From the NCBI RefSeq assembly GCF_041361345.1, contig NZ_JBGKAD010000002.1, positions 248,001 to 312,000 on the forward strand: 64,000 nucleotides of DNA, read 5' to 3'. How positions within the stretch are numbered: position 1 is the stretch's first letter; each line of letters starts with the position of its first letter. The notes below the pieces were generated by a model that had not been told where the DNA came from, ran no database searches, and saw only the letters and a program-made list of their open reading frames with translations. A program made the position numbers and the translations under genes. Below are positions 17,899 to 30,100 of this stretch, piece by piece. This DNA comes from Halobaculum sp. MBLA0147 (lineage in GTDB: Archaea; Halobacteriota; Halobacteria; Halobacteriales; Haloferacaceae).

Positions 17899-18852
17899 AT
17901 GACAGACTGGGACCCGAAACCAGAACAGGTGACCGGCGACGCCCGTCTCGTCGGAGACACCGAACCGGTCGGCCTCGGCGACACGGAGGACGTGTTCGTC
18001 CACGGGGACGCCGTCGGCGGCGACCTCCACGTCGCGGACGGCGAGTACGTGTTCACCGACGTCCCGACGGAGAGCGAGGGGGTGACACCGCCGACCGTCG
18101 ACCGAGCCGTCACGGGCGAGGAGGACGGCTACGTCGAGGACGTGGCCGACGACGTGGTGTTGCGTGGCGTCGAAGACGTGTTCGTCCACCACGACGGAGC
18201 GAACGCCCTCCGTGCCGGCGGTGCCGAACAGGTGTACCACGACGGCGACGCACAGCCGACGAAGCTGCCACAGTCGTACGAGGTGACACTCTCCGGCTGG
18301 AACCACACGCGGGAGGTGCGAGACCCGCGCGACGGCGTCGCAATCCTCGGCGCCACCAACGAACTCACGGTGCGCGACCTCGCCCACGACGCGACGGTGT
18401 ACGTGGTCGGGTGGGGCAACGAGGTCCACCTCGAAGGGAGAGACGCCGAGGCGTCCGTGTTCTTCGTCGGCCGCGACAACACGGTCCACGTCGGCCCGTA
18501 CCTCTCGGCGACCGCCGCCGCCGAGAGCGGCTTCGACAACGAGATCGACCGGGCACCGATCCCCGCCTCCGCCGTGATCCAGACGTCGAAGGAGGAGGCG
18601 CACGCCGACGCCACGTTCGGTCGCCACAAACTCACTTGGCAAGAGCCGGTCGACGACGAGCAGTGGTGCCCCAACTGCGGCAGCGAGGCCGACGCGGTGA
18701 TCCGTCGCCGACAGCGGGACGCTCTCTTCCTGTTCGGGGTCCCGATCCGCACCTACGACGACGGCGGCGAGAGCTTCGAGTGTGAACACTGTACGAGACA
18801 CCTCGGCGAAGTGTCGCTGACGGAGTCGGAACGCCGCGACGCACTCCGGTAG
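17899..18852 (+). CDS. Acidic protein with C-terminal zinc ribbon
   Basis: A 317-residue protein, divergent from the lipoprotein. Residues 1-230 are repetitive beta-type sequence with recurring V-F-V-H/H-x-D elements (DVFVHGDAVGGDLHV, DVFVHHDGAN, VFFVGRDNTVHVG), like a single-stranded beta-helix. Near residue 255 CPNCGSEAD and 38 residues later CEHCTRHLG form a four-cysteine zinc ribbon. The family is not recognised. Proximity to the spermidine-synthase cluster is the only clue to function. The ATG is preceded by TTGAAGTACC at about 26-31 bases, a plausible TATA box. Confidence 0.65.
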   Translation: MTDWDPKPEQVTGDARLVGDTEPVGLGDTEDVFVHGDAVGGDLHVADGEYVFTDVPTESEGVTPPTVDRAVTGEEDGYVEDVADDVVLRGVEDVFVHHDGANALRAGGAEQVYHDGDAQPTKLPQSYEVTLSGWNHTREVRDPRDGVAILGATNELTVRDLAHDATVYVVGWGNEVHLEGRDAEASVFFVGRDNTVHVGPYLSATAAAESGFDNEIDRAPIPASAVIQTSKEEAHADATFGRHKLTWQEPVDDEQWCPNCGSEADAVIRRRQRDALFLFGVPIRTYDDGGESFECEHCTRHLGEVSLTESERRDALR

Positions 18853-18964
18853 CCGGCACCGGCGACTACCCCGCTCGCGGTCGGTCTGGAGCCCCGTGAC
18901 ACCGACGGAGTGTGCGAGAACGAAGCCAGTAGTTCTAAGTCCGCACCTCGACACCGAAATCTCG

Positions 18965-19324
18965 ATGCTCTCACTCGATCTCTTGGACCGTCGCATCTTG
19001 CGGAACAACGACCCGGAGGAGTTCACGCGACTGTGGTTGATCCCGACGGCGACGTACGGCGTCGGCGACATCGTCACCACCGTCGCACTGCTCCAGTTCG
19101 TCCCGTGGGTCACCGAGGCGAACGTGTTGCTCCGGAGTGTCGTCGGCGCGTACGGACGGGCCGGGCTGGTGGGATTGAAACTGGCGGTGTTCCTGCTCTC
19201 GATCGCCGTGTCGGTGTACGGTGACCGCGTCGACGACCGGTTCGTCTACTACCTCCCGCCGGTCGCGCTGTCGCTGTTCGGCGCCTTCGCGACCGCGTTC
19301 AACGTCAGGTTGTTCCTCCGGTGA
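18965..19324 (+). CDS. DUF5658-like membrane protein
   Basis: A 119-residue protein with three or four hydrophobic segments. The motif YGVGDIVTTVALLQ followed by E-A-N-V-L-L and GLVGLKLAVFLLSIA resembles the DUF5658 family of small haloarchaeal and bacterial membrane proteins. The ATG at 18965 (MLSLDLLDRRIL) is the first sensible start. Function unknown. Confidence 0.65.
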   Translation: MLSLDLLDRRILRNNDPEEFTRLWLIPTATYGVGDIVTTVALLQFVPWVTEANVLLRSVVGAYGRAGLVGLKLAVFLLSIAVSVYGDRVDDRFVYYLPPVALSLFGAFATAFNVRLFLR

Positions 19325-19376
19325 CGCCCGCGGTGATCCCCTCCGACGGCGAACTCGGTCGTTCACGCTCGGTCGG

Positions 19377-20375
19377 TCAGGCGATCTCGACGAGCGTGAA
19401 CCCGAAGTCGACGACGACGGAGTCGGTCTGCACCTCGTTACCGACGCTGGCGGGGAGTCGGTACTGCACGACGAGTTCGGCCTCCTCTCCGGGTCCGAGT
19501 TCCGTCACGTCGATCTCTCTCCCTTCGAGCGACTCGACCGGCACGTACCCGGAGTCGTCGTCGAACAGCGGCTCGCGCTCGCCGTCTTCCACGACGAGGA
19601 GCTTCACCTGGAGTGCCTCGTCCAACTCGCCGGCCCCACGGCCGGGATCGCCACCCGTGTCGTCGACGGCTCGTTCCGGCTCCGTTCGACCGTTCTCGTA
19701 GCTCACGACGCTCACGTTGGTGATGTTCAACTCCCCCGCCACGTCGCCGTCGTTCTCGATGACACCGCTCGCGGTCCAGTTCCCACCGGGAACCGGTTGG
19801 TCGACGCCGGTCGAGGCGTTTCCGTCGCCGCGCTCCTCGTCACCGGCTTCAAAGAGGTCGCCGAACAGACCCCCGTCGTCGCTCTCGTCTCCGTCGTCGC
19901 CCGACTCGTCGGGTTCGAGATCGAGGTCGAACTCCGGGCTCGACTCCTCGAAGAACGTGTCGTCACTGTCGTCCTCGTCGTCACTCGACTCGCCGGGTGT
20001 CGGTGTCCGGGTGGGCGTCGAGGGCTGTTCCGTCGACTGCGTCGACGACGGGGTGTCGTCTCCCGGATCGCCCCCTCCGGGAGTCAGCGTGTTCGGTCCC
20101 GGTGTCGTCGCGGTGCCGGTCTCGTCGTCGGCGCCACCGTCTGTGCTCTGCCCGGTCGGCGAGGTGTCCGTCGGTGTCTGACCCGGTGTCGCGGACGGCG
20201 TCTGCGTGGGCGTCGGCGTCGCCGCCGGTCCGCCGGCGTCCGAACTCCCGAACTGTTGAACGAACCCGGCACCGGTACCGAGTGCGATCAGCGCGACGAG
20301 ACCGATGACGATCAGCCGCCGGCTGCGCCCCGGAGAGGGGAGTTGCTCTCTGATCGCGTCGAGTCGATCGGTCAT
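19377..20375 (-). CDS. Membrane-anchored TasA/camelysin-like protein with long acidic linker
   Basis: A 332-residue protein and last gene of the SipW operon. A membrane segment at about residues 21-42 is followed by a 130-residue Thr/Pro- then Asp/Ser-rich linker, which may be glycosylated and would span the S-layer. Residues about 190-332 form a beta domain sharing motifs with the TasA-like gene at 24315: GGDPGRGAGELDEAL, then GYVPVESLEG and QVQTD-type VGNEVQTDSVVVDF near the end. It overlaps the preceding gene by ATGA (20372-20375), so translation is coupled. It probably anchors or caps the filament made from the other cluster members; that role is inferred from domains and position. Confidence 0.7.
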   Translation of the reverse strand: MTDRLDAIREQLPSPGRSRRLIVIGLVALIALGTGAGFVQQFGSSDAGGPAATPTPTQTPSATPGQTPTDTSPTGQSTDGGADDETGTATTPGPNTLTPGGGDPGDDTPSSTQSTEQPSTPTRTPTPGESSDDEDDSDDTFFEESSPEFDLDLEPDESGDDGDESDDGGLFGDLFEAGDEERGDGNASTGVDQPVPGGNWTASGVIENDGDVAGELNITNVSVVSYENGRTEPERAVDDTGGDPGRGAGELDEALQVKLLVVEDGEREPLFDDDSGYVPVESLEGREIDVTELGPGEEAELVVQYRLPASVGNEVQTDSVVVDFGFTLVEIA

Positions 20376-21298
20376 CGTAGATCACCTCTCTCAGCCGTGT
20401 GGGACCCGCTGCCGGTCTCGATCCACCCCGACCGCGACACTGCAGCTGTGACCTCCCGCTCGGCCGAGACGCTCGTCGAAGGGGTGTGTTCACCTGTGTC
20501 TGGTTTCAGACCGTCCCACTGGTCTCGACTCTCGTTGTCTCCGTCGGCTCCGTCTCCCTCGCTGTCACTGTCGCCTCCACCACCACCATCTGTGCCGGCT
20601 CCGTCCCCGTCGTCGTCTCCATCGCTGTCGCCTCCACCACCACCATCTGTGCCGGCTCCGTCCCCGTCGTCGTCTCCATCGCTGTCGCCTTCACCACCAC
20701 CGTCTGTGCCGGCTCCGTCCCCGTCGTCGTCTCCATCGCTGTCGCCTTCACCACCACCGTCTGTGCCGGCTCCGTCTCCATCGCCGTCTCCGTCGCTGCC
20801 ACTGCCCCCTTCGTCGCCACCACTGTTCTCGTTACCCTCGTCGCTGCCACCGTTTCCGTCTTCTTCGGTGTCACCTCCATCGCCTGGGTCGTCGGGATCA
20901 GTGTCGTCTTTGTCGGCCTCACCGTTGCTCTCGTCACCCGACCCGTTCTCCGAACCCCCACCACTCCCGCCGAGCCCACTGGTCGGAGCGTTCCCCGCTG
21001 CACTCGCTGGGCTCCCAGATGCCCGTCGCTCGTCACCCCGTTTCTCCGACGACTGTCCGCCGTCCGTTCCGCCGCCCGACGACTTAACACTGCTCGCTCG
21101 GTCACTCGCCGGCGCGTTACCCGCAGCACTGCCAGCGTCGTTCCCGGCGACCTCCCACGTCCCCGCCGTGACGCTCCCGGTCGCGGTCCCGCCGTCGACG
21201 AACACGGCGAACGTCGTCCCGGTCGTTCCGGCGGCGACCGTGACACAGACCACGACCGAGAGTGCGGCGAGTGCTCGCAACGGTGTCGGACGGCTCAT
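20372..21298 (-). CDS. SipW-signal protein with acidic Gly/Asp repeats
   Basis: A 308-residue exported protein. The N terminus has a hydrophobic stretch and then TTFAVFVDGGTATGSVTAG, the hallmark segment after SipW-type cleavage (AxFxD then VxAGTxE). The rest is low-complexity: Ser/Gly/Asn-rich, then acidic Gly/Asp with 19-residue repeats of the type DGDGAGTDGGGEGDSDGDD. No folded domain is seen, so it is probably a flexible surface or matrix component. It overlaps sipW by ATGA upstream and the next gene by ATGA downstream, so all three are one translation-coupled operon. Confidence 0.7.
   Translation of the reverse strand: MSRPTPLRALAALSVVVCVTVAAGTTGTTFAVFVDGGTATGSVTAGTWEVAGNDAGSAAGNAPASDRASSVKSSGGGTDGGQSSEKRGDERRASGSPASAAGNAPTSGLGGSGGGSENGSGDESNGEADKDDTDPDDPGDGGDTEEDGNGGSDEGNENSGGDEGGSGSDGDGDGDGAGTDGGGEGDSDGDDDGDGAGTDGGGEGDSDGDDDGDGAGTDGGGGGDSDGDDDGDGAGTDGGGGGDSDSEGDGADGDNESRDQWDGLKPDTGEHTPSTSVSAEREVTAAVSRSGWIETGSGSHTAERGDLR
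20570..20800. repeat. 57-bp in-frame tandem repeat, about 4 copies
   Basis: The landmark TCTGTGCCGGCTCCGTC recurs at 20589, 20646, 20703 and 20760, a period of 57 bases, encoding a 19-residue acidic Gly-rich unit. Copies two and three are nearly identical at the DNA level, so the array is young or homogenised and probably variable in length between strains. Confidence 0.85.
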
Positions 21299-21816
21299 TC
21301 TGTGGTCTCCCCCGACGCCCCCTCCTCGGCGTCGCGTAGCAGAGCGTACAACTCGCTCCCCACCAGTAGTAATCCGGGGACTACCACCAGCGCAACCGTC
21401 CCCGCAGTCGTCCCGGCGAACGTCACTGCCCGCCCGATCAGCGGGATGTGGAAGGAGACGACCCCGACGACCGCAGACGGCTCTACCAGTTCCGGATCGG
21501 GGTCTTCGTTCGCGTCTCCCTTTGTCCGGAACGCACGCGTCCCGTCGCGCTCGACGACTTCGATCACCCGATGTGTGACGAGGCGGCCGTCCGCCTCGCC
21601 AGACCGGAACGTGATCACGTCACCCTCGCCGATCTGGGACGGCTGGCGGTCGGCGACGATCACCACGTCCCCGGCGTCGATCGTCGGCGCCATACTGTCG
21701 GAGAGGACGACGTAGCTCTGACTCGCGCCGACGACTTGCGGGACGGCGTAGACGATGAAGGGGAGTATCGCCAGGACGAGGGCAATAAACCCGACCCGCT
21801 GTAGTGTCTCACGCAT
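21295..21816 (-). CDS. sipW: SipW-type (ER-type) signal peptidase I
   Basis: A 173-residue membrane peptidase that would cleave signal peptides of the TasA-like proteins in this cluster. One N-terminal and one C-terminal membrane segment flank the catalytic part. The Ser is in VVLSDSMAPTIDAGD (about residue 41). The base is His, in GRLVTHRVIEV, as in ER/SipW-type enzymes rather than bacterial Lys. A conserved Asp is in KGDANEDPD. A ribosome site GGAGGTGA lies about 9 bases before the ATG, and a TTATAGC box is about 30 bases upstream, so sipW has its own promoter. It overlaps the downstream gene by 4 bases. Confidence 0.9.
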   Translation of the reverse strand: MRETLQRVGFIALVLAILPFIVYAVPQVVGASQSYVVLSDSMAPTIDAGDVVIVADRQPSQIGEGDVITFRSGEADGRLVTHRVIEVVERDGTRAFRTKGDANEDPDPELVEPSAVVGVVSFHIPLIGRAVTFAGTTAGTVALVVVPGLLLVGSELYALLRDAEEGASGETTE

Positions 21817-21870
21817 CCGTTCTGCTCACCTCCGGAATCATTGCGCCTCTGCTATAACTGACGTACTGAC

Positions 21871-22758
21871 TCATGAGCGAATGATCACCTCGTAGTCTAT
21901 CGTCGCTGTCTGGCCGGCGAAGGGTTTGCCGCCAGAACGGACTCGCCAGTCAACGACCATGTCGGTCGCCGTCTGACCTTCGCCACCAATGCTGACCTCG
22001 GAGTAGTCGGTCACCGTACCGTCCGAAGGGTCGTCAACGAGAGCACCGACGGTGCCGGGCTGGATGATCCACCTGATGGTGCTGTCCGCTCGCCCGACTC
22101 CGAATTCGACAGTGAGTGCGCCTCGGAGACTCGCCGCTCTCTGTGGAGGTGAACCCATGTTGCCCTCAGGTGATTTTCCATCGGCACAGTTGTTTCCGTT
22201 GTGATATGTCCGTCCGGCATTTTGAACATGTCGGTAGACTTTATTCAGCAGTTTAAACCAAGCAACTATTCGGAGATCGCCTCTGTGATTAATGCCCTTC
22301 TTTAGATCTGCTCCGGTGACCTGCCCCTCAGCAGAGTCCTCACTCGACTCGCCGACGACGTTGAGAGGGAAATCAGCCGTTAAGTTCAAAATGACGAACG
22401 CGCTACCGCATACGCCGAACTTGACCTTCTTTACGCCAAAGTCCCCGTTCGCTCCGCTGGGCTCTGTAACGGAAACGGCGTTGACTTGGTTGCCAAGTTT
22501 GCTAGGAAACCTGCCAGTACTCTTGACTTCGAGTGAGTCTCTGCCCTTATTGCCGTCCGCGACATCTTCGACAGTGGGTGAGGAGTCCCGATTAATCGAG
22601 AGTTCGACTGACCCAGCCCCAATGGTCACCTCGACAGTTTCAGAGTCATTAAACAATGCCTCTGTCCCCGCGCCGGCGGCGCTCAACGAGTTGCCGATAG
22701 TGGCGATACTCGTCAGTAGCCGCCGTCGCGAGAGTCCGGGATGGGTACCATCTGACAT
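21871..22758 (-). CDS. SipW-dependent exported protein with low-GC body
   Basis: A 295-residue protein. MSDGTHPGLSRRRLLT plus a hydrophobic run ending GAGTEALFNDSETVEVTIG is the N-terminal pattern of haloarchaeal SipW/TasA-type proteins. The body is beta-rich (ADFPLNVVGESSEDS, WFKLLNKVYRHVQN, VGRADSTIRWIIQP, TIDYEVIIRS). The centre of the gene (about 22100-22650) is clearly less GC-rich than the surroundings, with codons such as AAA and ATT that are rare nearby, whereas the signal part is normal. This suggests replacement of the mature part by transferred DNA. A start at 22812 is possible, but 22758 gives the typical MSD start. An AT-rich promoter zone lies at 22813-22860. Confidence 0.7.
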   Translation of the reverse strand: MSDGTHPGLSRRRLLTSIATIGNSLSAAGAGTEALFNDSETVEVTIGAGSVELSINRDSSPTVEDVADGNKGRDSLEVKSTGRFPSKLGNQVNAVSVTEPSGANGDFGVKKVKFGVCGSAFVILNLTADFPLNVVGESSEDSAEGQVTGADLKKGINHRGDLRIVAWFKLLNKVYRHVQNAGRTYHNGNNCADGKSPEGNMGSPPQRAASLRGALTVEFGVGRADSTIRWIIQPGTVGALVDDPSDGTVTDYSEVSIGGEGQTATDMVVDWRVRSGGKPFAGQTATIDYEVIIRS

Positions 22759-22860
22759 TGTTTCTGCTTCGTCCGGAAGACCCACCGGCGGAATCGAACT
22801 GGCGAGAAGCATGGGTGGGCCGAATATAGTTATATCAATCTGGATATCATATTTGATATT

Positions 22861-24165
22861 TTAAGGTTCGAGATCAATATTTAGCTTCTCTCCTGTTGTG
22901 AGTTCAACGGTGATATCGTCAATCCAAGCCTCTAGTTCGGGCGATCCGCTGTTGGTCTGAAGCGAAAGTGCCATCACCTCCTGGTTTTGATAATTGAATG
23001 TTGACGACAAGCTGCTATCGTAGTTGTTCCAGTTGATGGAGTCGCTCTGAAGCTCGTTGAGCGTTGGGAGATCGGGACCACCGACACTATTGCCATCCTT
23101 GTGTCCGCTGTCGTCAAAGACCAGGGTGTTCGAGGCGCTGTCTCTAGTACTGAACCTGTTCCATTCCTCGGGGGTGAAATTCGCGCCATCGCTGCCGTTG
23201 GCCTCCGCCGGCAGCGCAACCAAACGGCTGTCGTACCAACCGCCATCGTTCCCATCATTCTCCGGACGGGTGTATATTAGGAGGTAAATGTCATTTCCGT
23301 TGAGTGAAGTAGGCTCATAGAGCGAATAGGAAATCTCTCCGATCTCACCAATTGTATAGCCAGAAAGCGTCGAGATTGAGGAGAAGTCGCCGGCGAAGTA
23401 GAAGCCCTGCTTGTAACTATCATTGTCCTCGGAATGGTCGACAGTCCCCCATGCGCCGCTACCGCTCTGAGCGATGTCGGACGTTGTATCCCAGGGATTT
23501 GCAAATCCATCACCCTCACCGTAGACGGTGTCAGCCGTTAGAACGACATCTTTGCCCTGGGCTTCCTGAAGTAATTCAAAAGTAAAATCGATGGAAACAC
23601 TGTCGGTTTGAACCTCGTTCCCGGCGTTTTCATCAATTTCCCACCCGATCTCAAACTCTTCCGTTGAGTTATTACCGGGAAGGGACTTATTTGGGTTGAA
23701 TTGAACATTTTCCATCTCGGGTGCAGACCCGGTTGCGAACTCGTCGCCACCAAAGCCTAACGTGAGGTTGAGATGCTCACCAAGCTCCCCGGAACCTTTT
23801 GATGAATCACCAGCTTGTTTTTCTGGCTCAGCTAGACCATTTTCATCACTCGAAACTGATCTAACGTTAAGGTTCAAGAACCCATTAATGCTTCCAACAT
23901 TTTTAAGAGTCCTTGTACCTGTTCCTGACTGTCCAGGGCGCGCTTTAGTAACACTTAGCGTTGTGGTATTAGTCCCATTATTGCCGCCAGCAGCGAGATC
24001 GAGAGTACCCGCTTGAACACTGTTTCCATTACTTTCCTCCGAGTCGCTGAACAGCGCGAACGTCCCCGCACCGGTGGCGGCGGACGCGGCGCCGACTGTC
24101 AGTGCACCGCCGAGCACGCGGCGGCGAGTCAACTCGAACGTCGTACCGCTGTCGTCGTCGGACAT
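22861..24165 (-). CDS. TasA-like filament protein fused to a lectin-like domain, chimeric composition
   Basis: A 434-residue exported protein. MSDDDSGTTFELTRRRVLGG and GTFALFSDSEESNGNSVQAG form the SipW-type signal and first strand. Residues about 45-205 are a TasA/camelysin-like beta domain (GSINGFLNLNVRSVS, GNEVQTDSVSIDF). Residues about 205-434 are an extra beta-sandwich with many Asn, Ser and Trp (GWYDSRLVALPAEANG, ELEAWIDDITVEL), like carbohydrate-binding or LamG-type folds. The signal region (24045-24165) has local GC-rich composition, but the rest is much lower in GC with AT-rich codons. The join near residue 40 implies that a foreign mature part was recombined onto a resident signal sequence. 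Confidence 0.75.
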   Translation of the reverse strand: MSDDDSGTTFELTRRRVLGGALTVGAASAATGAGTFALFSDSEESNGNSVQAGTLDLAAGGNNGTNTTTLSVTKARPGQSGTGTRTLKNVGSINGFLNLNVRSVSSDENGLAEPEKQAGDSSKGSGELGEHLNLTLGFGGDEFATGSAPEMENVQFNPNKSLPGNNSTEEFEIGWEIDENAGNEVQTDSVSIDFTFELLQEAQGKDVVLTADTVYGEGDGFANPWDTTSDIAQSGSGAWGTVDHSEDNDSYKQGFYFAGDFSSISTLSGYTIGEIGEISYSLYEPTSLNGNDIYLLIYTRPENDGNDGGWYDSRLVALPAEANGSDGANFTPEEWNRFSTRDSASNTLVFDDSGHKDGNSVGGPDLPTLNELQSDSINWNNYDSSLSSTFNYQNQEVMALSLQTNSGSPELEAWIDDITVELTTGEKLNIDLEP

Positions 24166-24272
24166 AGTCGATCGATCCCCGTGACGGGGAGTCCCACCGA
24201 CGGAGTCGAACCGTCGCCCCTCTCGGGGACACCGGCGTGGGTTACCTGGCGTGAACGCCGTGTATCATCTCG

Positions 24273-24294
24273 CGTGTACGCTCTCGCGTACACG
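24273..24294 (-). terminator. Perfect hairpin between two TasA-like genes
   Basis: CGTGTACGC (24273-24281) and GCGTACACG (24286-24294) form a perfect 9-bp stem with a TCTC loop (plus-strand reading). It lies just past the stop of the 24315 gene and before the 24165 gene, both on the minus strand, so it may end or stabilise transcript ends between them. Confidence 0.5.
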
Positions 24295-24314
24295 TGACTC
24301 GCTAGTGGCTGACC

Positions 24315-24968
24315 TCAGTCGGACACCGTCTGCGTCAACTCGAACGTCGCGGTCACCTCAACGCGATCCGTCCGGACGCGATTGCTCGCGTCCGTCGGCA
24401 GGCGGTACGTCGTCTCCACGACCACGTCGCCACCGGCCGGGAGCGCGACCCTCCCGAGTTCTTCCCCGACCGGCACGTCCGCGACGGTCGCGAACTCGTC
24501 TGCGCCGCCGACGAAGTGCGCGACTGGCGGCTCGTCGGAGTCGCGGCGGACGGCGATCCGCAACTCCAACACCGACGACAACTCCCCGGCACCGCGACCG
24601 GGGTCACCGCCCGTCTCGTCCCCGGCCTCCAGCTCGGGCTTCTCGCGGCCGTTCTCGAGGTCCCGAACGTCGTCGATACCGAACGCGAGTTCACCCGGAA
24701 TCGACCCCTCGTTGGAGACGAGGAGTTCACGCCCTCCGGTCTCCTCGGGCTCGACACTGGTCGCGTCCGGCCCGATCAGTGCCCGCTCGTCGTTCGACCC
24801 GATGTCGAGATCCAGCGTCCCCGCACGCACCGTGTTCCCGGAACTCGTCTCCGCGTCGCGGAACACCGCGTACGTCCCCGCACCGGCACCGCTCCCGGCC
24901 GCTCCGAGACCGGCCACCGCCGCGAGGACCCGCCGACGCGTGAGGGGTACCGACTCGTTTCCGACCAT
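24315..24968 (-). CDS. TasA/camelysin-like SipW-dependent protein
   Basis: A 217-residue exported protein. The signal region has LTRRRVLAAVAGLG and then GTYAVFRDAETSSGNTVRAG, typical for SipW substrates. The mature domain (TLDLDIG, GSIPGELAFGIDDV, GGDPGRGAGELSSVL, VVETTYRLPTDASNRVRTD) shares motif order with the protein at 19377. Bacterial TasA and archaeal bundling-pilus subunits have this fold and assemble by donor-strand exchange. Composition is locally normal, unlike the next two genes, so this may be the resident subunit. The ATG at 24968 (MVGNESVPLTRRR) is preferred over 24989. Confidence 0.75.
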   Translation of the reverse strand: MVGNESVPLTRRRVLAAVAGLGAAGSGAGAGTYAVFRDAETSSGNTVRAGTLDLDIGSNDERALIGPDATSVEPEETGGRELLVSNEGSIPGELAFGIDDVRDLENGREKPELEAGDETGGDPGRGAGELSSVLELRIAVRRDSDEPPVAHFVGGADEFATVADVPVGEELGRVALPAGGDVVVETTYRLPTDASNRVRTDRVEVTATFELTQTVSD

Positions 24969-25445
24969 CGCTCTCGTGGGAGTACCCAACGACCCCCACC
25001 GTACTTGTTATGAGTTCTGAGAACTCGGTCAAGAACGGAGAGAAGATCGGAACGACCGGCGAGAACGGACACAAGCGCAGCCGGAACGCTCATCAATCGA
25101 TCCCTACCGAACGTTCAAACGAGGCCTTCGATCCCCGTCCGAGACGGTCAAGCGGTGCTTGAACGGCCGCTACGGGCCGTTCTCTCCACTTTCACCCACC
25201 GAGACCGCCACCGCATCTCGTTCGACACCCACCTCCGTCGACCGACCTCCCACGGGCGGACACGCCCCGTCCACGACACCACTCTCTCCGACTCTGGATA
25301 CCCACGCTCCCGACTCGACCCGGCAAGTGTCGCCGTACGAGACAATTAATACCGGACGTATTATACCGAGAATGTGGCTAATTCTACTCGTTTATGATAT
25401 GTTCGGTTCGGAGATATTATACCCCCGCTACACGAGAGACACGGT
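24969..25445. promoter_or_regulatory. Divergent regulatory region between filament cluster and DUF7344 gene
   Basis: 477 bases without a convincing gene. It becomes AT-rich toward 25340-25425. TAATACCGGACGTATTA (about 25347-25363) is a near-perfect palindrome and a candidate operator. ATATTATA at 25414-25421 lies 25-32 bases before the ATG at 25446, giving a leaderless promoter for the regulator. A tract near 25005-25015 (TTATGAGTTCTGAG) could serve the minus-strand genes. Short ORFs here are basic and not protein-like. Confidence 0.55.
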
Positions 25446-26024
25446 ATGGGAAGTCGAGCACGACTGCTCCAGGGGCAGGGGTCGAACCAGAGCGAAGAGG
25501 AGGTGTTGTTCGACATCCTCTCGAACCGGCGACGACGCTACGCAGTGTTCGCGATCAGCGGGACCGAAGAGGTGGAGTTGGGTGACCTGGCCGAGCGGAT
25601 CGCGGCGTGGGAGAACGAGCAGCCAGAGTCGGCGGTGACCAGTGACGAGCGGAAACGGGTGTACACGTCGCTCCAGCAGTCGCACATCCCGAAACTGGCC
25701 GAAGCGGGGCTCGTCGACTACGACGACCGGGCGTCCGTCGTTCGTCCACAGCCGACGCTCGAGGAGTACGAGGTGTACATGGAGGTGGTACGGGGCCGCG
25801 AGATGCCGTGGAACCAGTACTACCTCGGCCTCTCGGGCGTCTCGCTCGCGCTGCTCTTCGCCGTCGTCACCGACGCCGTCCCGTTCGACGCACTCCCGGA
25901 CGTGGCGTGGCTGGCGGCGGTCGTGGTCGCGTTCTCCGTCTCTGCGCTGGCCCACACGTACTACGTCGGCGGGACGAAGCTGAGCGGCGACGGGACGCCC
26001 CCGGAAGTCGAGATCGAGGAGTGA
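25446..26024 (+). CDS. DUF7344-type winged-helix regulator with two TM segments
   Basis: A 192-residue protein. Residues about 18-105 match the haloarchaeal DUF7344 winged helix: EEEVLFDILSNRRRRYAVF, then LGDLAERIAAWE, RKRVYTSLQQSHIPKLAEAGLVDYD. Residues about 125-175 form two membrane segments, and a short acidic tail follows. It is a probable membrane-tethered transcription regulator. It is divergent from the SipW/TasA-like cluster, so control of that cluster is a reasonable inference. The TATA box at 25414 supports the ATG. Confidence 0.8.
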   Translation: MGSRARLLQGQGSNQSEEEVLFDILSNRRRRYAVFAISGTEEVELGDLAERIAAWENEQPESAVTSDERKRVYTSLQQSHIPKLAEAGLVDYDDRASVVRPQPTLEEYEVYMEVVRGREMPWNQYYLGLSGVSLALLFAVVTDAVPFDALPDVAWLAAVVVAFSVSALAHTYYVGGTKLSGDGTPPEVEIEE

Positions 26025-26082
26025 CCGCCTCGTCACCCGACACGCACCACTCCCCCGCCGGAACGGTGTGAGGACGGGCCGC

Positions 26083-27069
26083 TCACTCCGTGACGACCGC
26101 GACGGACACCACCGGGTCGGGCGTGCGACACAGTTCGGCCCACGACGACGACCCGGTCTCGCGGCGGTAGCACACTCCCTCGGCGCGGTCCGGTTCGTCC
26201 ACGTCCGCCGTCGCCGTGCCGGCGTACAGCCACCCTCCTTCGGCCGACAGCGCCCACGTGTACGCCGTCGTGTCTGGGGTCGGTGCGGCACGGAGTGGAC
26301 ACCGCCCGTCGCCGATCGCGAACACGAGCGCCTCCGCGTCGGCACCCGGCCAGTCACCGGGCATGTGTCGTCCCCCACTCGTGTACAGCGTGCCGTCGAG
26401 GCGAGCGAACTCGTGGAAGTAGGTGTACCCTTGGAACAGTTGTCCGGTGTCGAGCCGTCGCCAGGACACTCCGTCGTCTGTCGTCCGGTAGAGTCCGTGA
26501 CCCGTCGCCGCCACCCACTCGCCGTCGGGTGTTCTGTGGAGGTCGTGGACGTCCTCGGCGAGCCCCTGGTGTCGCGACTCCCACGCCCCGTCTGCGAGAT
26601 GAAACACACCCGTCCGTTCGACCGCGACCGCGAGCCCGTCGTCCGTCCGGAGTGTGTCGGAGACGCGTCCACCGGCCTCGGAGACGACGACCGCCGAGCC
26701 GTCGATCCACCGTCGCGCAGGGTCCAAATCGGGCAGTTCGACCGTCTCCCACCGCTCGCCGTCGGGCGACCTGTGGACCGCGAGTGGAGCTCGCCCTCCG
26801 ACGACGAACCCCTCGCCGTCGACGTGGAGGTGTGTCGGCTCGTCCGTCGGGACCGGAATCGACTCGACGTGGGTCGGTGACGACTCGCTCGTTCCGGAAG
26901 TCTCCACCCGATACACACCGTCGGACCCACGACAGTACAGGCTGCCGTCGTGGCTGTCGACACCGACGGGTCCGCTCGGGCCGGGAACACGGACTGGCTC
27001 GGAGTCGTCGACCTCCGCTCCGGTGAGCCGGTAGAGGCCGTCTCTCGTCCCGAGGTACACGTGGGTCAC
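26083..27069 (-). CDS. BNR-repeat beta-propeller protein (second of a pair)
   Basis: A 328-residue soluble propeller. Asp-box/BNR-like repeats are visible: THVYLGTRDGLYRL, GSLYCRGSDGVYRV, HLHVDGEGFVVGG, VHRSPDGERWETV, LYRTTDDGVSWRRLD and GWLYAGTATADV. This is the layout of sortilin/exo-alpha-sialidase-like propellers, but no sialidase active-site set was identified. The GTG at 27069 overlaps the stop of the upstream paralogue in a GTGA arrangement, so the two are translationally coupled. The frame is open to 27216, but that part lies within the previous gene. No signal peptide, so cytoplasmic. Function unknown. Confidence 0.75.
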   Translation of the reverse strand: MTHVYLGTRDGLYRLTGAEVDDSEPVRVPGPSGPVGVDSHDGSLYCRGSDGVYRVETSGTSESSPTHVESIPVPTDEPTHLHVDGEGFVVGGRAPLAVHRSPDGERWETVELPDLDPARRWIDGSAVVVSEAGGRVSDTLRTDDGLAVAVERTGVFHLADGAWESRHQGLAEDVHDLHRTPDGEWVAATGHGLYRTTDDGVSWRRLDTGQLFQGYTYFHEFARLDGTLYTSGGRHMPGDWPGADAEALVFAIGDGRCPLRAAPTPDTTAYTWALSAEGGWLYAGTATADVDEPDRAEGVCYRRETGSSSWAELCRTPDPVVSVAVVTE

Positions 27070-28178
27070 GCGTCCACCTCCGTCTCCGGTGCCACCGCGA
27101 GACTCTTCACCCGGCTCGGGAGCGAGACGGGGCACCGCTCGACACCGCCGACGTCGACACGGAGGAGACCACCGTCTCTCGTACCCCCGAAGAGACGACC
27201 TGCGAGACTCGCCCACGACAGCGGGAACGCCGCACCCACCTCGTGGAGGATCTGTCGCCGGTGACCGTCGTAGCGGGCGACCACGGCCGCGACGTCGTCC
27301 TCGTACGTCACCAGTCCGTCGTTCAGCGCGGCGGTCACCAGCTCCCCGTCGTGAACGGCCACCTCTCGGTGGTAGCCGAACCGGAACCGATCCGTGTCGG
27401 TGTCCAGCCGCACCCAGCGGGCCTGCTCCGTCGGCTCCGGCTCGTCACCGTGTGCGCCCGAGGTCCAAGCGGTGTCCGCGGAGCCGGCCGCTCCGCCTCG
27501 AGTGGCACGCGTCTGGTACAGTCCGCCGCCGGTGGCCGCGACGAGCCGAGCGCCGTCGTCGGCGTACCGGAGGTGGTGAACGTCGTCGTGGAGACCGACA
27601 CCGAACGACTGCCACGACTCACCCCCGTCCGTCGTCCCGAACGCACCCTCGGACTCGACGCCGACGACGATCCGGTCTGGATCGCCCGGGTGGACTGCGA
27701 CGGTCCGCACCTGCGGCTCGAACGGCCCCGGTGTCGACCAGTCGCTCGCCGCCGCGAGCCGAGCGAACGCGACGTTCGCTCGCCAGTCACCCGGTGTCGC
27801 CGCTCGCTCGCTCCCGACCGCCACCTGCGCGGGACGGACCCCCGCGTAGAGTCGCCCCGACGACGGATCGTGTGTCACCGAGACGACGGTCCGGTCTCCG
27901 AGTCCGGTGGACTGCCACGTCTCCCCGTCGCGGGACCGATAGAGGCCGTCGGCTGTCGCCGCGTACACCGCCTCCTCGGTCCGGCACACCTGGTGGACGG
28001 TGTCGGTGTCGAGGACACACGCCGTCGCTCCGTCGAACTCGACTCGGTAGAGCCCGTCTCTGGTGCCCGCGAGGAGGACGACCTCGCTCGCAGTGTCGGG
28101 GCGTACCACGCCACGTCCTGCGTCTAGACTGTCGCCACTTCCGACCGCGTCGAGTCGCTCGGTATCTGTTCCGGTCAT
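27066..28178 (-). CDS. BNR-repeat beta-propeller protein (first of a pair)
   Basis: A 370-residue paralogue of the next gene. After an acidic 30-residue leader come VLLAGTRDGLYRVEF, AVYAATADGLYRSRDGETW, AFGTTDGGESWQSFG, ATGGGLYQTRATR and LFGGTRDGGLLRVD, all BNR/Asp-box type. No export signal. Duplication and 4-base coupling with its neighbour suggest the two propellers act together, perhaps as a heterodimeric scaffold or sensor. Upstream, CTATAAC (about 28279-28285, minus strand) is the only TATA-like element and lies 100 bases away. Confidence 0.75.
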   Translation of the reverse strand: MTGTDTERLDAVGSGDSLDAGRGVVRPDTASEVVLLAGTRDGLYRVEFDGATACVLDTDTVHQVCRTEEAVYAATADGLYRSRDGETWQSTGLGDRTVVSVTHDPSSGRLYAGVRPAQVAVGSERAATPGDWRANVAFARLAAASDWSTPGPFEPQVRTVAVHPGDPDRIVVGVESEGAFGTTDGGESWQSFGVGLHDDVHHLRYADDGARLVAATGGGLYQTRATRGGAAGSADTAWTSGAHGDEPEPTEQARWVRLDTDTDRFRFGYHREVAVHDGELVTAALNDGLVTYEDDVAAVVARYDGHRRQILHEVGAAFPLSWASLAGRLFGGTRDGGLLRVDVGGVERCPVSLPSRVKSLAVAPETEVDA

Positions 28179-28604
28179 CGGCCCGCCTCACTCTCCCGCC
28201 ACGCGGACTCCCGGTCGTCCCCGCGCCGCGCCGCTCGTGTGTTCGTCCATCTCGGTCCCCCAGTCGTCGGGACTCGTGTTATAGTTTGGTCCACAGCCAT
28301 CGGTAGTGTTCGGGTATAGCGGTGCCGTGTGGGAGGTCAAGAGAGACGGTGAGACACCGGTACGTTTCCGCCAGCCGGGAGCACCCGCCGGACGACGAGA
28401 TCGTCAGTTCCCACGTCACTCACATCCGAGCGACAGGGTGGGACGGCTCACAGGCGCAGTTCGATCTCGTCGGTCGGGACGTCATCCGGCGAGGACTCGC
28501 CCGTGTTCCACGTCCGCTCGACGAGCAGCAACCTGGTATCGAACGTTCCAGTGTCGTGGCAGATTGGTCGGTGGTTTTCACCCTGCCGTTTCGAACGAAC
28601 TCCG
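28179..28604. other. Intergenic region, 426 bases, no confident gene
   Basis: Two weak coding signals exist. On the plus strand a GTG frame near 28350 gives VRHRYVSASREHPPDDEIVS and then HVTHIRATGWDG. On the minus strand a frame ending at 28448 gives FDTRLLLVERTWNTG and an acidic tail. Neither has a clear start, promoter or family. A TATA-like TTATAGT is at 28278. GGTTTTCACC near 28572 is the probable promoter of the next gene. Confidence 0.4.
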
Positions 28605-29264
28605 ATGGACGAATCGGTTCGCGAGTGTCTCACAGCAGACGGTGAACTCCGTCGATCGCTGGACACACTGATCCGGTACGGTTCTTACGAGCGCGGTGAC
28701 TTCCGTCCCGGGCACGGCGACCTCGACTTCTTCGCCGTATTCGACACCGACCCCCCGGCTGACGTCCTCGAGCGACTCGAAGAGGTACTCCGCGAGTCCA
28801 CGTCCGAGATAGATCACCGAGGGATCGACCTCGCGTGGGAGCACGAGACGAACCTCGGACAGCCAGATGCTGGCGTCCGGTTCAAGTTCCTCTACGTCTA
28901 TCAGTTCGACTTCCGCCGTCATCACACTGTCGTGCTCGGTGACTTCCCGACGATCCCTCGCCGGGAGTTCCGTGAAGCCCTCCCGGGACGACTCGATCGG
29001 ATCGACCAACTCGTCACGGATGCCGGTGACGAAGGCCTTCGAATTCTCGCCGGTGAGGTGGCGCGTCTCCGTGCACTCTGTGCCGGTGCCGACTCACTAC
29101 GAAAGCAGGACGTCGCCGAGACACTCACCGACACCGAACACTCGAAAGCACGACGAGTGTACGAAGCGTACCTCGAAGACGAGGTAGCGCCTTACACGAC
29201 CGAGGAACTCCGCAGGTTCGTCTCTCGCGAGACCGAAGCACTCCGGAGTGACGTGAACGGGTGA
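28605..29264 (+). CDS. Minimal nucleotidyltransferase-like protein
   Basis: A 219-residue soluble protein. LDTLIRYGSYERGDFRPGHG then DLDFFAVFDTD gives the G-S-x(n)-D-L-D motif of the polymerase-beta nucleotidyltransferase superfamily (as in MNT toxin-antitoxin and aminoglycoside nucleotidyltransferases). A helical C-terminal half (LDRIDQLVTDAGDEGLRILA to LRRFVSRETEALR) follows. The ATG at 28605 lies about 30 bases after GGTTTTCACC, so it is leaderless. No HEPN partner gene is adjacent, so a toxin-antitoxin role is not supported. The spacing between GS and DLD is longer than usual. Confidence 0.65.
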   Translation: MDESVRECLTADGELRRSLDTLIRYGSYERGDFRPGHGDLDFFAVFDTDPPADVLERLEEVLRESTSEIDHRGIDLAWEHETNLGQPDAGVRFKFLYVYQFDFRRHHTVVLGDFPTIPRREFREALPGRLDRIDQLVTDAGDEGLRILAGEVARLRALCAGADSLRKQDVAETLTDTEHSKARRVYEAYLEDEVAPYTTEELRRFVSRETEALRSDVNG

Positions 29265-29444
29265 CCCGACAGGCAGCAGGGCGGCGGCTCGAACGATGGG
29301 ACTGGACCGAGAGGCGGGGAGACCGACCCGACACCGGTCAGGGTTCGACGACTCCCGCGAACACAGTCGTTCACTTTCGTGCGGTTCTCGCAGAGTGACA
29401 GTCGTCGAAACCTACCCCTCTACTGCCGACCGGACACGACGACG

Positions 29445-30100
29445 ATGCCCCCCACGTCGTTTCCCGATACCATCGACTGGGACGAACACTGGAGGACGAC
29501 CGACCGGCAAAAGCTCACCGAGATGCGTGCCGCGGGCGAGCGAATGGCTCGTCGGATCGAGACGTATTTCGACTCTGTCCCGGAGTCTCTCGCAGATGTC
29601 GGGTGTGGACCTGCGTTCATGTTGTTCGAGTTGGCCGACACACACCCAGACGTAGAGTTGTTCGGCTACGACGCCGCGGCATCCGTCTGTCGGGAGAATC
29701 GCACGCTCGTCCGGACCCGTGGCTTGGAGAACGTCTCTTTCGGACGGGGCGCTCTCCCGGAACTGTCCACAGATCGACAATACGCGTGTGTCACTTGTAT
29801 CGCGACGCTTCACTACGTCGCCGATATCGAGACTGCAGTCGAGACTCTACTCGCACACGTCGAGCCCGGCGGGACACTGGTGTTCAACTACCCCAACGAG
29901 CACACTCGTCGGCAGTATCGTGAAGACCCTGCGACGGATCCCGAACGGTTCGAACTGGTGTTGGCGGGCGAGAACCTGCTGACGTACGAGCGAATCCGGG
30001 AGATCACCGGCCGACGCCCGCGGAGCTTCTGGAAGGCTGTCGACGAGGACGACTGGCGCTCCGTCGGTCGCGTGAATCCGGCGTGGTCATCACGACGTAG
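29445..30100 (+). pseudogene. SAM-dependent methyltransferase, C-terminal frameshift
   Basis: A class I methyltransferase. Residues about 45-60 read LADVGCGPAFMLFEL (SAM motif I), then VELFGYDAA, NVSFGRGALPEL and EPGGTLVFNYPNE. The frame from the ATG at 29445 stays open to 30419, where it would be antisense to tbsP. Shortly after WRSVGRVNP, one added G (GGCG to GGGCG near 30081) would give NPGVVITT and a stop at 30098-30100, a normal ending. So either the gene carries a one-base deletion or the sequence has an error. With the present sequence the protein gains about 106 spurious residues. Substrate unknown. Confidence 0.7.

Follow-up and report, generated by a model that had tools for sequence, protein, structure and literature searches.

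The DNA analysed here is a window of 64,000 nucleotides (C2:248001-312000) within a 4.29 Mb haloarchaeal genome, and the window features described below lie on its minus strand. A gene cluster runs from a TasA-like gene (24315-24968, recognised by the model TIGR04088) through the gene under study, hereafter the target (22861-24165), a second signal gene (21871-22758) and a SipW-like signal peptidase (21295-21816) to two further genes. The target is present as the preliminary description had it, as an open reading frame of 434 aa. The second signal gene also matches TIGR04088 above its cut-off and carries a cargo of its own, the mature part of which has no homologue in the retrieved loci, where the signal alone finds matches; a start at 22758 suits its signal and its leader element (see below) better than the ORF start at 22812. 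The peptidase scores above the cut-off of TIGR02228, the model for archaeal signal peptidase I, and reaches an E-value of 8.5e-31 against the SipW model NF046067, which is below the cut-off of that model. The last gene (19377-20375) has a TasA-like stretch that matches target residues 42-202 (E 8e-11), and the predicted protein of the gene between it and the peptidase (20372-21298) is acidic, rich in Gly and Asp and contains direct repeats. Judged from these matches, the target encodes a TasA-like protein that is secreted, and it is one of a few such genes arrayed beside a SipW-like signal peptidase.

The target codes for a SipW-type signal, a TasA-like domain and a C-terminal module. Its signal was matched by TIGR04088, which describes SipW-dependent-type signals, with 33.5 bits (cut-off 19), and PF12389 (TasA/camelysin) gave an N-terminal match of 32.3 bits, above the gathering cut-off of 22.5. 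A structural model of modest quality, in which only the TasA-like domain reached a pLDDT of about 60-82, placed residues 64-200 near TasA in a Foldseek search (5of2/5of1, E 2.5e-4 to 9.6e-4), in which unrelated chains matched too. The C-terminal module (22864-23556, about 230 residues) was found again at the C-terminus of other proteins, in genomes G239, G136 (two genes), G045, G010 and G022, and it is rare, since one search found it in 5 of 342 genomes, our own counted, and BLAST of the retrieved loci added one more. Although the full-length target model was poor over this part, the module modelled separately as a beta-sandwich (pTM 0.72, mean pLDDT 65). The preliminary description spoke of an extra lectin-like domain, and our results show that the extra module is real and recurs elsewhere, but its likeness to lectins is not established: VIA-align scores reached Z 5.7 at most (below 8), mostly with GH12 glucanases and with one legume lectin at Z 4.9, no Foldseek match was obtained at E <= 0.001, no Pfam family scored above its cut-off in the proteins scanned, and no sequence match to solved structures fell below E 0.06. 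A SipW-type signal peptidase close to secreted proteins of TasA type is likewise described, in PMC9674648, for the tapA-sipW-tasA operon of Bacillus subtilis and for archaeal bundling pili. The haloarchaeal arrays, which are described here from their genes, differ from tapA-sipW-tasA in their many paralogues, varied cargo and tRNA-like leaders.

A break in composition divides the target. Third-position GC (GC3) is 0.85 over codons 1-40 and ranges from 0.10 to 0.55 per 20-codon block over codons 41-200, and the best single changepoint lies at codon 43 (about window position 24037), where GC3 falls from 0.86 to 0.52 with a log-likelihood gain of 10.2, so that codons 1-43 form a GC-rich signal part (24037-24165). 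This is close to the boundary at about 24045 proposed in the preliminary description. The difference in GC3 between signal and mature part (+0.33) is the highest among 153 full-length SipW-signal genes (mean -0.06, SD 0.09, next highest 0.21), and therefore the Ala, Gly and Arg content of such signals does not explain the break; an amino-acid artefact is ruled out both by the use of GC3 and by this rank. The same boundary in homologues would have told against the chimeric reading of the preliminary description, and it was not seen in the related genes L123, L105 and L102 of other genomes.

The closest homologue of the target was found in genome G239, which belongs to another family, with about 72% identity over the aligned residues (about 309/432). 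Its GC3 is low throughout (0.53 over the gene), its leader is unlike that of the target, and no T-arm motif was seen by eye in the 160 nt upstream of it. Because the boundary is absent from the relatives, and because the G239 gene is low in GC3 along its whole length and is preceded by another kind of leader, the target is probably a foreign low-GC cargo, consisting of the TasA-like domain and the C-terminal module, that was placed behind a local leader and signal. The most likely route to such a chimera would be homologous recombination in the conserved DNA of the signal. Horizontal acquisition of the whole gene, whose start would look local by chance, by drift or by gene conversion of the signal, agrees with the fact that the G239 homologue is similar over its full length, signal included (62-80% over the first 50 codons and 72% overall), but we give it roughly one chance in four, since the drop in GC3 is abrupt and the largest among the 153 genes, and since the target has a GC-rich leader of the type common to the family, to which the G239 leader is unrelated.

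The target leader contains a T-arm-like sequence, which is also found upstream of the next gene. In the target, the element (24191-24241; match to the covariance model R1 with E 1.2e-14, with covariation in the family) consists of an acceptor-like helix with 5' strand CCCAC at 24241-24237 and 3' strand at 24197-24191, and of a T-stem (24216-24211 with 24203-24198) closed by a T-loop at 24210-24204. A second hairpin, CCCC...GGGG (24177-24189), lies between the element and the start codon. The weaker element before the second signal gene (22779-22821, R1 match with E 1.3e-11) has acceptor-like strands at 22821-22814 and 22786-22779, a T-loop at 22798-22792 and an imperfect T-stem with 4 of 6 pairs. 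No T-arm was present within 140 nt upstream of the first cluster gene. Perfect matches to the pattern GTTCGAYTCCGNCGGTGGGNCT occur four times in the genome, each of them just upstream of a SipW-signal gene. The element was not called as a tRNA gene by ARAGORN, which found 0 genes in the window, nor as a known Rfam RNA (E <= 5, positions 18000-30000), the one chance-level match, to a CRISPR repeat, lying elsewhere.

A common architecture was derived from 86 leaders, which were kept from 88 with a T-arm because they had a start codon within 80 nt and a score >= 13. An acceptor-like 5' strand, typically GACCCAC, is followed by a linker of variable length that opens with N1-3 GG, by a stem of up to 6 bp with the loop TTCGAYT (84/86), and by an acceptor 3' strand, typically GTGGGTC, after which the next base is T in 79 of the 86. 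The second hairpin precedes the start codon in 83 of the 86 leaders (29% of shuffles), and in 70 of these 83 it ends 6-10 nt before the AUG. When the 5' acceptor strand was chosen by pairing alone the evidence was weak (score >= 14 in 64/86 leaders vs 43% of shuffles), so we rely on the count of the upstream motif CCCA[CT]N1-3GG, present in 67 of the 86 leaders and in 8.1% of shuffles, and on covariation. An alignment of 34 from 42 sequences, in which three near-duplicates were left out together with five sequences, the target among them, whose chosen 5' strand did not look like an acceptor strand, showed changes on both sides in 8 of 13 pairs and a covariation score of 0.250 against 0.117 +/- 0.010 when shuffled, a selection that favours the acceptor helix and affects the T-stem counts less. 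Sliding the partner strand by 1-3 columns in this alignment reduced pairing from 95% to 35-53%. Of five sequences folded singly, one clearly supported the proposed structure (the element at C2:38414, z -1.94), whereas the other four had z-scores of -1.29 to +0.05 and three of the five, including the target and the 5S leader, folded otherwise; the target itself, whose lowest-energy fold differs (z -0.43), offers a 6-bp T-stem and about five acceptor pairs. The family element is composed of acceptor-like and T-arm helices, as supported by covariation.

The element is associated with the position of a gene in its array. In 80 regions, 120 signal genes come after another gene of this kind, and 91 of them carry the element with the strict loop, against 15 of 73 others (Fisher p 4e-14); with the relaxed loop the counts are 98/120 and 17/73, respectively. 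This count leaves out sixteen genes near region ends, and the regions, which also underlie the GC3 ranking, the leader alignment and the test of signal homogenisation, were chosen partly for model matches, so the fractions apply to these regions. The 17 of 73 genes that carry the element without following another signal gene indicate that it is not only a separator of cistrons, and a strictly intercistronic role is weakened by the element-bearing solo genes (13 of 53 signal genes with no near upstream gene on the same strand), which suggests that the element can also act in the simple leader of a solo gene. Among the other coding-like ORFs of the regions a T-arm was located upstream of 11 of 195, ten of which begin like twin-arginine secreted proteins, and the rate at random positions was 1.8%. 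Three element-less signal genes of L125 (G034; minus strand, 6577, 14080 and 16191) share a leader of their own, CTTTGCAAAGG, some 65-75 nt before the start. Several of a group of element-bearing genes with no near upstream gene (L098, L097, L107, L122, L144, L175 and L178) share an AT-rich sequence that resembles ATTAGCTATGG and lies some 60-110 nt upstream of the T-arm; it is possibly a promoter or regulator box.

On a larger scale, an exact-pattern scan of genomes from 84,980 species returned 59 stretches, all haloarchaeal by title, with 74 distinct matches; Halorubrum saccharovorum and Halobacterium bonnevillei are among the carriers. Of the 73 that could be assessed, 64 precede a SipW-type gene, 7 precede a second secreted family and 2 have an unclear context. 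This second family (M-RR...GAFTSV...ADR), seen with the element in L086, L121, L138, L139, L210 and others, matches DUF1102 weakly and below the cut-off (E 0.0027). The covariance model was matched at E <= 1e-7 in 84 of 292 genomes of the host's order, representing 38 of 78 genera. In a sample of 342 genomes from the phylum it was matched in 32, every one of which belongs to that order. Matches below E 1e-6 in our own genome (G000) include contexts other than SipW genes. A strong element at C2:184613-184664 (L046, E 3.8e-13) stands before a pentapeptide-repeat-like ORF, and further matches lie on contig C4, three of them (26524, 27214 and 27727; L113) surrounded by small genes that do not resemble the SipW family; this contig of 227 kb by eye also holds DNA-methyltransferase-like ORFs. 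The sole pattern match on a viral contig (L256 from IMG/VR, 2856-2875) lies 56 nt upstream of an ATG in an AT-rich region and likewise has a CCCAC strand upstream.

The order and spacing of the element match those of the 5S rRNA leader in the same genome, where CCGAC, GTTGGCACA and a 6-bp stem with a 7-nt loop are followed by GTCGG. The 5S t-element of Haloferax is said to have been reported originally as a tRNase Z substrate by Hoelzle et al. in 2008 and 2012, and a later study in Haloferax reportedly lists many further t-elements, some of which were not cut when tested. Like the Haloferax 5S t-element, the present one has acceptor-like and T-arm helices with neither D-stem nor anticodon arm, a GG in the linker and, directly after it, the RNA to be released. 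Unlike it, the present element sits in mRNA leaders of secreted-protein genes with a second hairpin next to it, its cleavage is predicted here, and its loop reads TTCGAYT (84/86) where the 5S copy of our own genome has ATCGTTC. According to passages of PMC4326828, the tRNA-like element before the 5S rRNA of Haloferax volcanii is processed by tRNase Z, and crRNAs flanked by t-elements were released in vivo in Haloferax through RNase P and tRNase Z (PMC4326828 and PMC4946936). In those engineered transcripts, as the same passages describe, t-elements release the RNA between them; the constructs were man-made, whereas the elements described here are natural mRNA leaders. Given the shared order and spacing with the local 5S leader and the Haloferax 5S precedent, the family looks like t-elements used as mRNA leaders, and this conserved leader of haloarchaeal secreted-protein genes would be a variant of a known element. 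No description of a tRNA-like mRNA leader was found in the open literature searched, whose coverage excludes most subscription papers.

By analogy, the role of the element is likely the processing of mRNA 5' ends, and it would contain a putative cutting site. In the target leader an acceptor-like helix comes first, then a linker containing a D-loop-like GG and a canonical T-arm, and after these the second hairpin and the start codon. The cut would be made after the acceptor strand by tRNase Z, possibly together with RNase P, as for the Haloferax 5S t-element, which would free the downstream cistrons from a presumed common transcript of the array and give each mRNA a defined 5' end that lies some 25 nt upstream of the AUG and opens with the second hairpin. 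Separation of cistrons is favoured by the position of the element within arrays. Alternatively, the element could control translation in cis with no cleavage, the tRNA mimic and the second hairpin together gating access of the ribosome. The G-rich 3' arm of the hairpin, which ends 6-10 nt before the AUG in 70 of 83 leaders, and the solo genes with an element in their own leader are in line with such control. We give it roughly one chance in four, since several second hairpins keep the stem and not the G-run (CTCCGG/CCGGAG, CCTGC/GCAGG), since one Haloferax species is said, in the title of PMC3986360, to make no use of Shine-Dalgarno sequences at 5'-UTRs, and since it leaves both the tRNA mimicry and the likeness to the 5S element unexplained.

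The signals themselves evolve partly in concert. A 28-residue signal block was present in 144 of 151 genes, 126 of which met the conditions of the test, and in 92 of these 126 the signal DNA was nearer to a paralogue of the same genome than to the best match of the mature part in another genome. Codon usage accounts for part of this likeness; against a null simulated with the codon use of each genome (200 simulations each), synonymous identity of signals was in excess in 12 of 35 genomes (p < 0.01). Our own genome owes its place among the 12 to a cluster at C2:350-360 kb rather than to the target, whose signal is no closer to a local paralogue (identity 0.63) than to a gene of another genome (0.62), so that a recent exchange is not visible there. 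Across the signal, the 26 homogenised pairs have an identity of about 0.8-0.94, which is near background some 90 nt on and 0.24-0.50 upstream of the start codon; the homogenised tract therefore covers the signal plus some 60-90 nt, and the leader element is not where it begins, so that the element as boundary of exchange is not supported. The cassette exchange suggested in the preliminary description, with a constant secretion tag and a variable cargo, is partly supported, by the chimerism and by the homogenisation of signals, but neither a recent exchange at the target nor a tract beginning at the element was found. No dedicated cassette system is needed for these data, which would be explained by gene conversion, or by homologous recombination within the conserved DNA of the signals. 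A role of the element as recombination site, with the genes as exchangeable cassettes, is very improbable: the constant leader and signal with variable cargo, the homogenised signals of 12 of 35 genomes and the fact that tRNA 3' ends are common integration sites agree with it, but the tracts cover the signal with so little identity upstream, compensatory changes indicate an RNA structure, family scans of six proteins of the window cluster identified no recombinase, and no dedicated site was identified.

Taken together, we lean somewhat towards a joint explanation in which the target is a chimera that arose by recombination in the signal DNA and is expressed behind a t-element leader cut by tRNase Z. 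More broadly, and with slightly less confidence than an even chance, haloarchaea may use widespread natural tRNA mimics as mRNA leaders, with the enzymes of tRNA maturation cutting arrays of secreted filament-protein genes into single mRNAs. The predicted cut site is testable in cultured species. If the proposal is true, processing by tRNase Z would reach beyond a single rRNA leader to mRNA leaders of a class that recurs, and the make-up of the cell surface would depend on tRNA-processing capacity. That the signals of an array can be homogenised while the cargo diverges offers, in turn, a concrete route to new surface proteins.
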